From NCBI GenBank assembly GCA_001787005.1, contig MFUV01000013.1:483-47567 (forward strand): 47,085 nt of DNA, given 5' to 3'. The stretch comes from Candidatus Nomurabacteria bacterium RIFCSPLOWO2_01_FULL_39_18 (GTDB taxonomy: Bacteria; Patescibacteriota; Minisyncoccia; Phycocordibacterales; UBA9973). Positions 35,676 through 47,067 of this stretch are shown here, in pieces. Both the position numbers and the translations under genes were made by a program. Below the pieces are notes generated by a model. That model saw only the letters and a list, made by a program, of their open reading frames with translations. It made no database searches and was not told where the DNA came from. Every line of letters starts with the position of its first letter. Position 1 is the stretch's first letter.

Positions 35676-36740
35676 ATGTTAAAGAAAAAAGAGAAGAAAG
35701 AAGATAAAACTGTGGGAATGGCAGTGCTCGAAGATACTTTGAAATCCATACAGACAAAATTCGGAGAAGGATCAATCATGAAATTCGGTGACTCTCCTAA
35801 AGTAGATGTCAATGTCATACCGACCGGCTCCATCGGACTAGATATGGCACTCGGAGTAGGTGGAATACCACGCGGTAGAATTATTGAAATATTTGGGCCT
35901 GAATCCTCCGGCAAGACTACGCTTTCGCTCCATATTGTGGGAGAAGCACAGAAACTCGGTGGAGTCTGCGCATATATAGATGCTGAACACGCAATGGACC
36001 CAGAATACACCAAGAAACTTGGAGTCAATATAAATAATTTACTTATTTCTCAACCGGACAACGGTGAACAAGCCCTTGAGATCGTGGAATCCTTAGTCCG
36101 CACTGGAAAGATTGACGTAATCGTCATTGATTCAGTTGCCGCATTAACTCCAAAGGATGAAATCGAGGGCGATATGGGGGCGTATCATGTGGGCAAGCAG
36201 GCCAGGCTGATGAGCCAAGCGCTCCGCAAGTTAACCGCGATAGTGGCGAGATCTAAAACTGTTGTTATCTTTATAAATCAGATTCGCATGCAAATCGGAG
36301 TAATGTTCGGCAACCCAGAGACTACTCCAGGCGGGAAAGCGCTGAAGTTTTATACCTCTGTACGATTGGACATCCGCAAAATTGCTCAAATTAAAAAGGG
36401 CGAAGAGGTGGTTGGTTCTCGCACCCGTGTAAAGATAGTAAAAAATAAAGTTGCCGCGCCGTTCAAGCAGACAGAGTTTGATATCATTTACAATGAGGGG
36501 ATTTCCAAAGAGGGGGAAATCATGGCACTCGGTGAGAAATTCAAAATTATTGAGAAAAGCGGAAATTCTTATTTTTTTGTACCCCCACCCGACCTCCCCC
36601 TTCTCAAGGGTGAGGAGAAGGTGGAAAAAACAAAATTGGGCGTGGGTTATGATTCTACTCGCACCTTCTTAAAAGAAAATAAGAAAATCTCGGATCAAAT
36701 ACTGAAAGAAATACGCAAAAAGTTTGCAGAGGAGGCGTAA
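35676..36740 (+). CDS. recA: Recombinase RecA, with an in-frame palindromic-repeat insertion near the C-terminus
   Basis: [45 protein letters not shown]...[21 protein letters not shown]. Confidence 0.97.
36579..36624 (+). repeat. Palindromic repeat, subfamily II, in recA coding sequence
   Basis: gtacccccacccgacctcccccttctcaagggtgaggagaaggtgg, aligning with 40161-40202 and with the reverse complements of 40566-40601 and 41548-41586. Confidence 0.8.
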
Positions 36741-36756: not shown

Positions 36757-36800
36757 CCACCTCACCCCTGCCCCTCTCCAGAGTACCAGAGAGGGGAAAA
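36757..36800 (+). repeat. Palindromic repeat, subfamily I, left flank of DUF559 gene 1
   Basis: ccacctcacccctgcccctctccagagtaccagagaggggaaaa; 8-bp stem cccctctc/gagagggg. Confidence 0.85.
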
Positions 36801-37157
36801 TCAAATACTAGAAAGTCCTTTTATTGTTCCTTTGATTTCATCTAAAACTTCATGTAAATCTTTTTCTACTTCAGAATTCCAAAACCTGATAACATTTATA
36901 TATTTAGATTTTAAATATTCTGTTCTCGCCTTATCATATTCTTTATTTTCTTTTTTATTATGTATAGATCCGTCCAATTCTATCGCGAGTTTTATGGAAG
37001 GAGCATAAAAATCCACAATAAACATATCTATTGGATGTTGCCTTCTCCACTTCACGCCAAGATTATTATTTCTAAGTTTCTTCCAAAGTATTTGCTCTGT
37101 TTTCGTAGTTTCCTTTCGCAAATATCTTGCTTTGATTATTGTTTTTAATTTAGCCAC
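36801..37157 (-). CDS. DUF559 domain protein (Vsr-fold endonuclease-like)
   Basis: TKTEQILWKKLRNNNLGVKWRRQHPIDMFIVDFYAPSIKLAIELDGSIHNKKENKEYDKARTEYLKSKYINVIRFWNSEV. Confidence 0.85.
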   Translation of the reverse strand: MAKLKTIIKARYLRKETTKTEQILWKKLRNNNLGVKWRRQHPIDMFIVDFYAPSIKLAIELDGSIHNKKENKEYDKARTEYLKSKYINVIRFWNSEVEKDLHEVLDEIKGTIKGLSSI

Positions 37158-37190: not shown

Positions 37191-37235
37191 TTTTCCCCTC
37201 GCCATTAATATGGAGAGGGGTTGGGGGTGAGGTTG
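37191..37235 (-). repeat. Palindromic repeat, subfamily I, right flank of DUF559 gene 1 (inverted)
   Basis: Reverse complement caacctcacccccaacccctctccatattaatggcgaggggaaaa aligns with 36757-36800. Confidence 0.85.
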
Positions 37236-39230: not shown

Positions 39231-39312
39231 ATTCCCCTCTTGAGGGGTGGCTAAAAGCCGGGGTGGATGCATTCCACCTCCCCCTGAAGGGGTACTCCTC
39301 AAGAGGAGAATT
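39231..39312. repeat. Back-to-back inverted pair of palindromic repeats (subfamily III), no internal gene
   Basis: attcccctcttgaggggtggctaaaagccggggtgga-tgcat-tccacctccccctgaaggggtactcctcaagaggagaat. Confidence 0.8.
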
Positions 39313-40150
39313 AAATCCCAAATATCCGTTTTGCATTCGCTATAATAGCCTCTCTGACTTCGTCCTCCGACAAGTTCTTGATCTCGGCAATTTTTTTGAC
39401 AATTTCCTTTACATAGGCAGGTTCATTTCTTTTACCTCTATGCGGCACAGGTGTCACGTATGGACAGTCTGTCTCGGACATAATCATATTGGGCGGAGTA
39501 TTTTTTATAACTTCGTCATAGTTATGAGTAAACGTAATGACTCCGGTGAAAGAAAGCGTGAAGCCAAAATCTAAAAATGCTTTCGCGTCTTCTGGACTGC
39601 CAGCGAAGAAATGTACGTCGCCTCTGACCTTGGAGTGTTGTTTTAAGATTTCTAAGCTATCTTTGTATGCACTTTTAGTTTTATCAGCGAGGTTATTGCG
39701 AATATGAAGCATTAGGGGAAGATCAAATTCATTCGCAAGTTCTATCTGCTCTATAAATGCTTCTTTCTGTTTTTCAATTGATTCCTCGTCCATTCGATAA
39801 TAATCGAGCCCGCATTCTCCTATCCCCACCACCTTCGGATCTTTTAAAAGTTCGCGATAGAATTCTTTGTCAAAAATCTCGCCGCGTGAGGCAAATTCCT
39901 GGCCACCTTTTCCCAATTCCTGAAGGTCATGATACGAAGCGCCAGTGTGGATGGGGTGAAGTCCGACGATCGCATAAACACCCTCTTTATATTGATTTGC
40001 CATCTCCACTGCCTTCTTTGAAGTATCCATTTGCGTACCGACGTTTATCATCCAGGTGTCATTCTCTAGCGCACGGGCAATCACCTCATCTTTGTCTTCG
40101 TCAAAAGCTTTAAAATTAACGTGGCTGTGTATGTCGATATATTTGGGCAT
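39311..40150 (-). CDS. tatD: TatD family metal-dependent hydrolase/DNase
   Basis: YIDIHSHVNFKAFDEDKDEVIARA...GLHPIHTG...VGIGECGLDYYRMDEESIEKQKEAFIEQIELA...SETDCPYVTPVPHRGKRNEPAYV. Confidence 0.94.
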   Translation of the reverse strand: MPKYIDIHSHVNFKAFDEDKDEVIARALENDTWMINVGTQMDTSKKAVEMANQYKEGVYAIVGLHPIHTGASYHDLQELGKGGQEFASRGEIFDKEFYRELLKDPKVVGIGECGLDYYRMDEESIEKQKEAFIEQIELANEFDLPLMLHIRNNLADKTKSAYKDSLEILKQHSKVRGDVHFFAGSPEDAKAFLDFGFTLSFTGVITFTHNYDEVIKNTPPNMIMSETDCPYVTPVPHRGKRNEPAYVKEIVKKIAEIKNLSEDEVREAIIANAKRIFGI

Positions 40151-40158
40151 GTTGTTTA

Positions 40159-40545
40159 TTATACCCCCACCTGACCTCCCCCTACATTAGGGCGAGGAAA
40201 AGTTTCTAACTCTTTTGTAATTCTTTTTAACACTTTATCCATATTAGCACTAACTTCCCTATTCCAAAAACGAAAAACTTTTATATCATTAAATGAAAGA
40301 TAATCATCTCGTTTTTTGTCATAATCTTTATTTTCTAAATGTTGAAAACCGTCCAGTTCAATAGCAATTCTTTTTTCTACACAATAAAAATCTAGAATAA
40401 AAGGACCCACAGAATATTGACGAGTAAACTTAAATCCCAATTTTTTTCTTCTCAAACTAGCCCAAAGAAGTTTTTCTTCGTTCGTTTCACCGTGACGCAA
40501 TTCTTTGCGTCTAGATTTTAATTTGGGATCGTTGTATATAAACAT
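40159..40545 (-). CDS. DUF559 domain protein (Vsr-fold endonuclease-like); 3' end of ORF lies in a palindromic repeat
   Basis: TNEEKLLWASLRRKKLGFKFTRQYSVGPFILDFYCVEKRIAIELDGFQHLENKDYDKKRDDYLSFNDIKVFRFWNREV; C-terminal RPNVGGGQVGV is repeat-encoded. Confidence 0.85.
   Translation of the reverse strand: MFIYNDPKLKSRRKELRHGETNEEKLLWASLRRKKLGFKFTRQYSVGPFILDFYCVEKRIAIELDGFQHLENKDYDKKRDDYLSFNDIKVFRFWNREVSANMDKVLKRITKELETFPRPNVGGGQVGV
40161..40202 (+). repeat. Palindromic repeat, subfamily II, left flank of DUF559 gene 2
   Basis: atacccccacctgacctccccctacattagggcgaggaaaag. Confidence 0.88.
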
Positions 40546-40563
40546 AAGATTTTTCTTTTCTTT

Positions 40564-40601
40564 GCCCTCACCCTATGTAGGGGGAGGTCAGGTGGGGGTA
40601 C
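40564..40601 (-). repeat. Palindromic repeat, subfamily II, right flank of DUF559 gene 2 (inverted)
   Basis: gccctcaccctatgtagggggaggtcaggtgggggtac; reverse complement matches 40161-40202 with a long exact core tacccccacctgacctccccctacat. Confidence 0.88.
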
Positions 40602-40605
40602 TGAT

Positions 40606-41535
40606 CTAAATTGAATTAACTCTCAACATTCTTTTTGCTATCCTAATAAATTTATTTATTTTACTAGGATTTCGATCGATTGACCATCTTAATTTATCAA
40701 AAGATATTAGCAACATAAGTTTTATGAGTTCTGGTTTAAGTAACCCAAATTGTTTTTGTGACATACCGTATCCTTTTATAAATTGATTGAATTCAAGATT
40801 GCTTGGTCTATGGGTTTCTATTTTACATCTTAATATGTGAGTAAAATCATAATGGGGAATGATGTGAACTTCGGCTGAACCCCAATCAAGTAAATTCACT
40901 TTCCCTGATTTCTCAACAAGCGTATTCCAAACAGAAATATCTCCGTGATTTAGTCCAAAAGTGTATTTTTCTTTTTTTATATTATTAAATATTTCTTTGA
41001 CTTTTTTTGATTGTTTTTGGGTCAGAACTTTCAGTTTTATTAGCTTGTCATTATTTTTTAGGCTTTTTATATTATAATTCACATATTTTTGCCAAGAACC
41101 TGTAAAGACACCCCGCTTTAGGTTAGTCAGGTTTTCTCCAAAACCAGAAACTTTCACTGAATGTATTAGTTTTGTATATTTACCAAGTTTATAGTATAGA
41201 TTTAATTTACTTTTTAATTTCTTGCCATTTTTACCTGAAACAAAGGTTTCAATCATATATGCTCTGCCCTGTGATTTACTCACATCAAGCACGCTGGGTC
41301 CCGGGATACCCACTTCTCTTGATTTTTCGATGCACCATTTTTCTTTTAAATAATTTTGATATGCTTTATATTCTTTATGGGGTAGACTAAGTTTTATAAC
41401 AATTTCTTTTTCTTTAGAAATTGCTAGAAAATTTTTGTTGTTACTTCCTCTGCCAATATGTTTGATTAAAATATTTTTAGAATTAAAAAACTTTTTAGCA
41501 ATCTCTAAAGCGATTTGGGTGTCTGATGATTTCAT
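40606..41535 (-). CDS. Aminoglycoside phosphotransferase/choline kinase-like protein
   Basis: FGLNHGDISVWNTLVEKSGKVNLLDWGSAEVHIIPHYDFTHIL (APH-like HGDxxxxN...DWG). ATG at 41535 chosen over the track's GTG inside the repeat. Confidence 0.75.
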   Translation of the reverse strand: MKSSDTQIALEIAKKFFNSKNILIKHIGRGSNNKNFLAISKEKEIVIKLSLPHKEYKAYQNYLKEKWCIEKSREVGIPGPSVLDVSKSQGRAYMIETFVSGKNGKKLKSKLNLYYKLGKYTKLIHSVKVSGFGENLTNLKRGVFTGSWQKYVNYNIKSLKNNDKLIKLKVLTQKQSKKVKEIFNNIKKEKYTFGLNHGDISVWNTLVEKSGKVNLLDWGSAEVHIIPHYDFTHILRCKIETHRPSNLEFNQFIKGYGMSQKQFGLLKPELIKLMLLISFDKLRWSIDRNPSKINKFIRIAKRMLRVNSI

Positions 41536-41547
41536 TTGATTGTATTT

Positions 41548-41586
41548 TGCCTTCACCCTATGTAGGGGGAGGGTTGGGTGGGGGTA
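41548..41586 (-). repeat. Palindromic repeat, subfamily II, abutting the metG stop codon
   Basis: ttgccttcaccctatgtagggggagggttgggtgggggta, same orientation as 40564-40601. Confidence 0.85.
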
Positions 41587-41588
41587 AT

Positions 41589-43073
41589 TTAATCTTTCCT
41601 CAAAAACAAAGGTTCCTTGGGTTTCTTGTTCTCTTTGATTAATTTTTGTATTTTTTCCGAAGTCTCAGGAAGAAATGGTGCGAGTTGTACAGACACATTG
41701 AAAAGCATTTTGACAAACTTTTGTATTAATTCTTTTCCCTTCTCTGGGTCTGTTTTTACCAACTTAAATGGTTCCAATCTTTGTATAAATTCGTCTATTT
41801 CGGAAATATTTCCCCAAACAATATCCATTCCGAGTTTTAAGTCAAAAGATTGTATTTGGGAAGAAACCATTGTATCAAACTTTAAATTCTTATCTTCAAT
41901 TATTACTGGTGCCTCTAAATTATCCTCTGCCATTTTCATCACACGACTTACCAAATTCCCCAAGCCATTCGCAAGATTTGCATTGTAAGCATCCTTGAAT
42001 CTCTCCATCGTAAAAGGGCTATCTTCAAAAGGGGAAATTTCACGCAAGAGGAAATATCGAAGCGCATCTGTGCCATATTCTTTCACAATTTCAACTGGAT
42101 TAATTACATTGCCTATAGATTTAGACATTTTTATTCCACCTTCGCCGGTAATGAAACCATGGTAGACAATGGTATCGGTTGTTGGCAGTCCCGCAGACAT
42201 AAGCATCCCCTGCCACATTACTGACTGGAATTTCACCATGTCTTTGCCGGCAGTCTGAACTTTTTCTCCCTTCATCCAAAACTTTTCAAAATCATTTACC
42301 TCATCCCGCCCCTCTCCTTGCAAAGGAGAGGGAGAAACACCAGACCAACCCAGAGTCGAAATATAATTAACAAAGGCATCAAACCAGACATACATAACCT
42401 GATTCTCGTCTCCTGGGATAGGAACCCCCCAAGAAAAGCGTGTTTTATTGCGAGAAATCGAGAAATCTTCCATGTCGTTCTCTACGAAATCCATCGCCTC
42501 CTTCCTGCGCCACTCTGGAATGATTACTTTTTCAGTAGAAAGATATTCTAATAATTTTTCTTTATATTTACTCAGCCTAAAAAAATAATTTTCTTCCTCA
42601 ACCACTTGTGGTGTTAAGGTGGGATGAAACTCGCATTTGCCATTCACTAAATCTTTTTTTGTAATGAACTTCTCGCATCCTACGCAGTACAGCCCTTTGT
42701 ACTTTTTTTTATAAATATCGCCTTTTGCCTCACATAGACGCCAAAATTCTTGCACAGCTTTAGTGTGCAGGGGGTCGGTCGTCCTGATAAAATTATCATT
42801 CGAAAGATTTAAGGTTTTTTTTAGATCTAAATAATTTTGCGCGTATTTGTCCACATAATCTTGCGTATCTTTTCCTTCTTTCTGGCTTGCCTCCCAAATT
42901 TTCTGACCATGCTCATCCGTACCCGTGCTGAAAAAGACATCTCTCCCCAGAAGGCGCTGATATCTCGCTATCGCGTCCGACTGCGCAAGTTCAAGCGCAA
43001 AACCAATATGTGGCTCTGCATTTACATAAGGAATTGTGGTAGTAATGTAAAAACTTTTTTTATTAGAACTCAT
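41589..43073 (-). CDS. metG: Methionyl-tRNA synthetase, with an in-frame palindromic-repeat insertion
   Basis: FYITTTIPYVNAEPHIGFALELAQSDAIARYQRLLGRDVFFSTGTDEHGQKI...GFITGEGGIKMSKSIGNVI. Confidence 0.96.
   Translation of the reverse strand: MSSNKKSFYITTTIPYVNAEPHIGFALELAQSDAIARYQRLLGRDVFFSTGTDEHGQKIWEASQKEGKDTQDYVDKYAQNYLDLKKTLNLSNDNFIRTTDPLHTKAVQEFWRLCEAKGDIYKKKYKGLYCVGCEKFITKKDLVNGKCEFHPTLTPQVVEEENYFFRLSKYKEKLLEYLSTEKVIIPEWRRKEAMDFVENDMEDFSISRNKTRFSWGVPIPGDENQVMYVWFDAFVNYISTLGWSGVSPSPLQGEGRDEVNDFEKFWMKGEKVQTAGKDMVKFQSVMWQGMLMSAGLPTTDTIVYHGFITGEGGIKMSKSIGNVINPVEIVKEYGTDALRYFLLREISPFEDSPFTMERFKDAYNANLANGLGNLVSRVMKMAEDNLEAPVIIEDKNLKFDTMVSSQIQSFDLKLGMDIVWGNISEIDEFIQRLEPFKLVKTDPEKGKELIQKFVKMLFNVSVQLAPFLPETSEKIQKLIKENKKPKEPLFLRKD
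42298..42341 (+). repeat. Palindromic repeat, subfamily I-like, in metG coding sequence
   Basis: acctcatcccgcccctctccttgcaaaggagagggagaaacacc; 10-bp stem ccctctcctt/aaggagaggg; encodes GVSPSPLQGEGRDEV on the minus strand. Confidence 0.85.
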
Positions 43074-47009: not shown

Positions 47010-47067
47010 CACCCCCTCCGCCTTTGGCACCTCCCCCTTAGCTAAGGGGGAGGCTGGCTAGGGGTAC
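47010..47067. repeat. GC-rich palindromic repeat with a 24-nt perfect palindrome core
   Basis: gcaccccctccgcctttggcacctcccccttagctaagggggaggctggctaggggtacc; core cctcccccttagctaagggggagg (47030-47053). Confidence 0.8.

Follow-up and report, generated by a model that had tools for sequence, protein, structure and literature searches.

In the Candidatus Nomurabacteria genome analyzed here, the DUF559 gene between tatD and metG (DUF559-2) and the two inverted repeats around it probably constitute a single mobile or formerly mobile module of a REPtron-like kind, which combines a nuclease of the Vsr/PD-(D/E)XK fold with triplex-repeat ends. DUF559 genes are associated with such repeats across the bacteria, individual clades are paired with individual repeat types, gene and repeats travel together, the site is empty in relatives, and repeats occur both solo and as gene-less pairs. 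The window, that is, the whole stretch of DNA that was analyzed, comprises 47,085 nucleotides of contig MFUV01000013.1 and contains the following features.

36580 to 36615, minus strand: solo repeat, in frame, near the 3' end of recA
36759 to 36794, minus strand: cassette 1 repeat, outer tail towards recA
36801 to 37157, minus strand: DUF559-1 (cassette 1), of a different clade and with its own repeat type
37197 to 37231, plus strand: cassette 1 repeat, other arm
39311 to 40150, minus strand: tatD, downstream neighbor and one border of the insertion site
40159 to 40545, minus strand: DUF559-2, putative nuclease (PF04480 match, predicted PD-(D/E)XK/Vsr fold)
40162 to 40197, minus strand: 3' arm of cassette 2, triplex-type repeat CCTCGCCCT-AATGT-AGGGGGAGG-TCA-GGTGGGGGT-A, tail outward, towards tatD
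40566 to 40600, plus strand: 5' arm of cassette 2, triplex-type repeat CCTCACCCT-ATGT-AGGGGGAGG-TCA-GGTGGGGGT-A, tail outward
40606 to 41556, minus strand: APH-family phosphotransferase-like gene (Pfam APH, E 1e-9)
41551 to 41586, plus strand: third, direct copy of the cassette 2 repeat, straight after metG
41589 to 43073, minus strand: metG, upstream neighbor and other border of the insertion site
42297 to 42332, minus strand: solo repeat, in frame, inside metG
47032 to 47066, plus strand: repeat adjoining a third DUF559 gene

The inverted arms of cassette 2 are not a product of chance. They span 41 nt (40162-40202 and 40560-40600; complementarity, 83%) and score 60 as an inverted repeat, compared with a 99th percentile of 27 to 29 for control windows from comparable loci. 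The exact 26-nt core that the first-pass annotation had described in opposite orientation in the two flanks (TACCCCCACCTGACCTCCCCCTACAT, 40162-40187, complementary to 40575-40600) is indeed present, and its view of the cassette as a real unit with the coding sequence fused to the element end also holds, the open reading frame running through the 36-nt arm. The repeat does encode the C-terminal tail as proposed, but the count is 12 residues (PRPNVGGGQVGV) rather than about 11, the whole 36-nt 3' arm being translated in the DUF559-2 frame. Nor does the reading frame end inside the repeat: it reads through the 3' arm and, since the stop codon (TAA, 40161-40159) lies immediately beyond, crosses the element end. 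The tail is repeat-derived, because it falls outside the Pfam domain (last residue, 114), the AF2 model leaves it disordered (pLDDT of <50 at residues 123 to 128), and the tails of homologues differ, being set by repeat and frame (NSPSP, TSSSP, GPHPNVGGGLVGV, and INELK, each followed by a stop codon, the last ending before the repeat). A tail conserved in homologues that lack the repeat was looked for among the homologues and was not found. The same gene-ends-in-repeat arrangement is seen in Escherichia coli, where ycjD, which lies between sapF and fabI, is the DUF559 gene. In the one strain examined, its reading frame ends in LSPSPQPSP and a stop codon inside an exact TM_ECO/BoxC element, and a second TM_ECO element lies about 170 bp beyond the end of the gene.

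The repeats share a layout in which a C/G-rich hairpin is followed by a purine tail matching a third strand. Read backwards, this tail matches the hairpin's purine arm, G facing G and either T or A facing A, and judged from sequence it is predicted to act as a reverse-Hoogsteen third strand in an intrastrand-triplex motif. In the 3' arm of cassette 2, 9 of 9 positions of the third strand GGTGGGGGT agree with the mirror image of AGGGGGAGG, and the 5' arm likewise reaches 9/9, so that in both arms the last of the C, G, and G blocks mirrors the middle one. A perfect third-strand tail is carried by 47% of the arms in the genus and by 54% of those from other bacteria; the mean tail match is 0.83 to 0.85, compared with 0.60 to 0.62 for shuffled tails (P = 1e-10 to 2e-12). 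An RNAalifold consensus, which served for counting only, paired the 5' block with the tail, the alternative partner to be expected of a triplex-type motif.

This C-G-G architecture of three blocks, in which the second loop is short, is shared with the BoxC/PIT/TM_ECO repeats (consensus, CCCTCNCCCN3-6GGGNGAGGGN3GGGNGAGGG), which form triplexes in vitro, are found in >260 genomes, are tied to genome instability, and have been reported with neither an association with mobile elements nor a named nuclease (PMC4666352). Both kinds are dispersed and often form inverted pairs, and the published consensus itself stands beside E. coli ycjD. Unlike TM_ECO, the repeat in the window has its own blocks (CCTCRCCCT / AGGGGGAGG / GGTGGGGGT), so that the literal consensus is not matched by the cassette 2 arms, and repeats of the genus also sit within coding genes. 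A related pattern, GGAGAGGGN{2,5}GGGTGAGG, occurs eight times elsewhere in the genome, both cassette 1 arms included. Among 145 Patescibacteria genomes, DUF559 was present in 17 of the 19 with a pattern lying within the published consensus, and hence non-circular, versus 15 of the 126 without it (Fisher P = 1e-11, uncorrected for phylogeny); a reversed control pattern matched once. The comparison of repeat counts with DUF559 counts per genome is partly circular, because the repeat model was built from DUF559 arms. Repeats are retained without DUF559 in some genomes (G024, G026, G088, and G202). In the open-license literature we found no link of DUF559/YcjD to BoxC or REP-like repeats; a subscription paper could hold one. 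The E. coli sapF-fabI site (L316 and L317) is a natural presence/absence system, in which a lineage has ycjD and its BoxC repeats or else the eefRABCD efflux operon (PMC12817139).

When the best inverted repeat between two 250-bp flanks was scored for each DUF559 domain (threshold, a score of at least 34), flanking inverted repeats were found within the genus at 36 of 51 DUF559 loci versus 1 of 257 control windows, the latter having identical geometry and lying elsewhere in the same loci. Across many phyla (Patescibacteria, Chloroflexi, Proteobacteria, Bacteroidota, Nitrospirota, and others), the corresponding figures were 42/74 (57%) and 0/405. The broad set consists of the 80 loci that best matched Nomurabacteria queries and is hence a non-random sample, and at about 40% of the broad loci no flanking pair was detectable within 250 bp. 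Arm geometry is not uniform, since the tails are directed outward in the genus and inward in many Proteobacteria. One genus-wide control window scored 384, reflecting a very long palindrome or an assembly artifact. GIY-YIG genes, taken as a control in the genus, have short inverted repeats of their own (score of at least 34 in 5/24 loci), which differ in sequence; the association is therefore not one of any small nuclease with the same repeats. At GIY-YIG loci L230, L226, L229, L235, L231, L232, and L243, the repeats are of the CCCGTTAGAGAT or CCCCACACCTTT type, and possibly these genes and their repeats form a third repeat/nuclease family. The Neisseria gonorrhoeae DUF559 locus L314 (NGO0050-like, cf. 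3hrl) has several copies of CCCTGTGGGAGAGAGCTAGAGAGAGGG, another triplex-type repeat, around the gene.

Repeat types are specific to DUF559 clades, and gene and repeats move together between sites. For this comparison, the 5' flank of one locus was matched with the reverse complement of the 3' flank of another, excluding coding similarity. Among pairs from different genomes, the proportion with a repeat score of at least 34 was 5% at 30 to 40% DUF559 identity, 62% at 60 to 70%, and 81% above 70%, and label shuffling within genomes confirmed that repeat similarity tracks DUF559 identity (P = 0.001; broad set, P = 0.002), while DUF559 genes co-resident in one genome have differing repeats. Above 70% identity, the same repeat was found in 13/16 pairs at different sites and in 16/20 at shared sites. 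Since repeat type follows clade and same-clade genes have the same repeats at other sites, gene and repeats travel together.

The metG-tatD junction illustrates this mobility. The comparison of tatD upstream regions among relatives, suggested as a check in the first-pass annotation, showed that the metG stop codon abuts tatD in most of them, most of these empty junctions being free of any repeat. DUF559 cassettes occupy the junction in this genome (G000) and in G020, G023, G013, and G029. In the tree, the G000, G020, and G023 copies form a single clade (100/99), and the G013 and G029 copies are nested among those located elsewhere, so that the junction has been invaded independently at least three times. 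In G019 and G033, two further relatives, the junction contains inverted repeats without a gene, the G033 pair being of the same repeat type. Unrelated elements have inserted at the junction as well, making it a hot spot: at L206 (G004) and L198 (G020:C42) it holds an open reading frame resembling a Y1-type transposase, and in G004 a PF01797 match adjoins tatD. A target site duplication was not detected (mean longest direct repeat of 1.63 versus 1.60 in shuffled data; n = 57), which speaks against a classical DDE transposon or MITE. DUF559 is scarce on plasmids (39/72,556) and phages (2/50,697), so spread is inferred to be mainly intragenomic or by chromosomal transfer.

Additional genes may be carried along. 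The cassette at the junction includes a VOC-type gene in G013 and the APH-like gene in G000. The latter is bracketed by the repeats at 41551-41586 and 40566-40600, the former of which also brackets APH plus DUF559 together with that at 40162-40197. As it is missing from the empty junctions of relatives, the APH-like gene is a passenger candidate within a repeat-bounded insert. At two other DUF559 loci, L064 (C10:152969) and L065 (C9:9361), repeat pairs enclose DUF559 and a second gene, judged by eye to be nucleotidyltransferase-like and VOC/glyoxalase-like, respectively; repeat-bounded units may thus carry passengers.

DUF559-2 (128 amino acids) has its domain at residues 9 to 114 (Pfam DUF559, E 4e-32) and scores 110.8 bits against PF04480 (DUF559/YcjD), above the gathering cut-off of 20.6. 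Its AF2 model (pLDDT, 88) matches 3hrl and the catalytic domain of the EDxHD homing endonuclease I-Bth0305I (3r3p; E 1e-4, TM 0.81 over the target) and, weakly, 1vsr in Foldseek, and E24, Q43, D52, F53, E63, D65, G66, H69, and R79 are invariant in 67 DUF559 sequences. The modeled alpha/beta nuclease fold and the conserved acidic residues place DUF559-2 in the PD-(D/E)XK superfamily, to which YcjD has been assigned in the vicinity of Vsr, which HMM comparison detects (PMC1189080). In Caulobacter, VsrA carries a DUF559 domain and is functionally linked to a cytosine methyltransferase, and the DUF559 protein triggers DNA damage signaling in vivo once cytosine methylation is lost; the experimental study interprets it as a Vsr-like repair enzyme (PMC12907096). 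Conceivably, DUF559 could be a host repair enzyme that nicks T:G mismatches in the manner of Vsr, the repeats being coincidental or regulatory, for example as terminators. The Vsr-like fold, the HMM relationship, and the Caulobacter data agree with this, yet we consider it unlikely. It does not predict clade-specific repeats on both sides, co-travel to new sites, several clades per genome, or in-frame cassettes in leucyl-tRNA synthetase (LeuRS), and the clade-repeat pairing in particular argues strongly against it as the whole explanation. Furthermore, no methyltransferase gene lies beside cassette 2, the neighbors being tatD, the APH-like gene, and metG, and DUF559 here, unlike Vsr and VsrA, is multicopy and repeat-flanked, with a mobile distribution.

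The resemblance to I-Bth0305I raises another possibility, homing, in which DUF559 would cut a gene-less repeat that is then repaired from a DUF559-bearing copy, genes thus invading existing repeats. This we regard as a tentative alternative with a real but lesser claim. It finds support in the closest functional fold match, in the gene-less repeats of G019 and G033 at metG-tatD, and in a site that is occupied by different clades and shows no target site duplication. On the other hand, the majority of empty junctions have no repeat, and the gene-less pair of G033 retains a short spacer as beside DUF559, more like an internal deletion. Moreover, DUF559-2 shares the catalytic-domain fold of the homing enzyme but is a lone catalytic domain of about 115 amino acids without a DNA-binding extension, and it lies outside any intron or intein, free-standing between metG and tatD; the LeuRS copies are plain in-frame inserts. 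Homing departs from the repeat-spreading module that we favor mainly in the order of events.

That module works like a REPtron, in which a single-domain nuclease gene (RAYT, or TnpA-REP) lies between inverted palindromic repeats with further copies scattered through the genome; the same layout is found here. Further REPtron features reported in PMC6006769, namely, repeat types specific to a nuclease subclass, inverted pairs, "double foot" forms, and repeats within the nuclease gene, also have counterparts. It is not a REPtron, because nuclease and repeat chemistry differ: the central gene is a DUF559 PD-(D/E)XK/Vsr-fold nuclease in place of a Y1 HUH transposase, and the repeat is a purine-motif triplex motif rather than a GT[AG]G-footed hairpin, such a foot being absent 5' of the hairpin in the cassette arms as checked by eye. 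Also unlike in REPtrons, DUF559 genes at new sites probably bring their own repeats.

Alternatively, resident Y1 (RAYT/TIRYT) transposases might spread the repeats, with DUF559 merely sitting in repeat-rich places. The genus is rich in Y1 transposase genes, of which this genome has 13, and repeat number correlates with Y1 number (rho, 0.51). Nevertheless, we hold this to be very unlikely, as Y1 genes have unrelated hairpins of their own (TGTCAAGG...CCTTGACA and similar) at 19/29 loci, a frequency at the same level as that of DUF559 (36/51 in the genus) in the same genomes. A confident DUF559-type repeat was seen at just one scanned Y1 locus and a purine hairpin in 1/38 Y1 arms, and repeat type follows DUF559 clade. 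With Y1 controlled for, repeats and DUF559 have a partial correlation of 0.55, compared with 0.22 for repeats and Y1 with DUF559 controlled for, so that, together with these hairpins, RAYT is disfavored as mobilizer of DUF559-type repeats.

The age of cassette 2 calls for a different reading from that first given. Its flanks were correctly noted to be more alike than those of cassette 1 (94% versus 72%), which had suggested more recent activity, and a late single jump would indeed leave near-identical arms. Such an event is scarcely credible here, since orthologous cassettes occupy the same site in G020 and G023 (DUF559 amino acid identity, 74 to 75%), the gene has codiverged with tatD (DNA identity, 76 to 82% and 72 to 75%, respectively), and the arms are equally conserved between species. 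At 87 to 94% identity across orthologues, the arms are better conserved than the gene, and their similarity thus reflects conservation or homogenization and not recent insertion. Cassette 2 behaves as vertically inherited in three species and is not freshly mobile.

Repeats are not confined to cassette 2. The genome (813 kb in 13 contigs) contains 49 dispersed matches to the repeat model. Of its six DUF559 genes, three lie within about 11 kb at this locus, the third beginning just beyond the window end (G000:C13:47577-47858), and all six have a repeat of this general kind nearby. The solo repeat in recA is common to G014, G019, and G033, other relatives having a short loop at this position. 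In LeuRS of seven relatives, an in-frame DUF559 cassette with both repeats sits just before the editing-domain VFTTRPDTIFGATY motif, and these copies form one clade (100/99). The same linker is empty in other relatives, contains an alpha/beta-hydrolase alone in one (G008, L170), and holds both inserts in one (G011, L168/L082); NUDIX domains are also present in LeuRS of relatives. LeuRS copies L054, L055, and L082 have an additional repeat in frame within the DUF559 domain (e.g., RRNNPSLTLPEGEGRNSNG), and repeats inside tnpA-REP genes have likewise been reported (PMC6006769). Genes tolerate such in-frame insertions because open frames are frequent in the repeats. This is reminiscent of the Rickettsia palindromic elements, short palindromic repeats in frame within protein-coding genes (PMC10969869 summary), in which no nuclease gene has been described, whereas here solo in-frame repeats (recA, metG, and LeuRS) coexist with nuclease-bearing LeuRS copies.

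As to mechanism, we infer that DUF559 recognizes and cuts the repeats and that repair does the rest. The nuclease may recognize the hairpin or triplex of its cognate repeat on exposed single-stranded DNA and would cut it there; repair of the break or of a single-stranded intermediate could then copy the repeat to new places, with or without the gene and passenger genes. Spread of this kind would be closer to that of RAYT/REP or to homing than to cut-and-paste transposition. Given that the same family stands beside the same repeat type in many bacteria, including E. coli, the long-missing gene behind the spread of these repeats is probably DUF559. With somewhat less confidence, we lean towards the wider proposal that DUF559 (YcjD) proteins are bacteria-wide, RAYT-independent repeat mobilizers that recognize triplex/hairpin ends, gave rise to the orphan BoxC/PIT/TM repeats seen in E. 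coli and in hundreds of further genomes, and in Patescibacteria also place both repeats and nuclease domains, in frame, within essential genes such as that for leucyl-tRNA synthetase. A cognate nuclease (ycjD in E. coli K-12-type strains) makes the origin and instability of BoxC/PIT/TM directly testable. If true, the proposal would offer a second, chemically different explanation for the spread of REP-like repeats, assign a function to a large family of "unknown function," DUF559, and exemplify the in-frame entry of mobile modules into essential genes.
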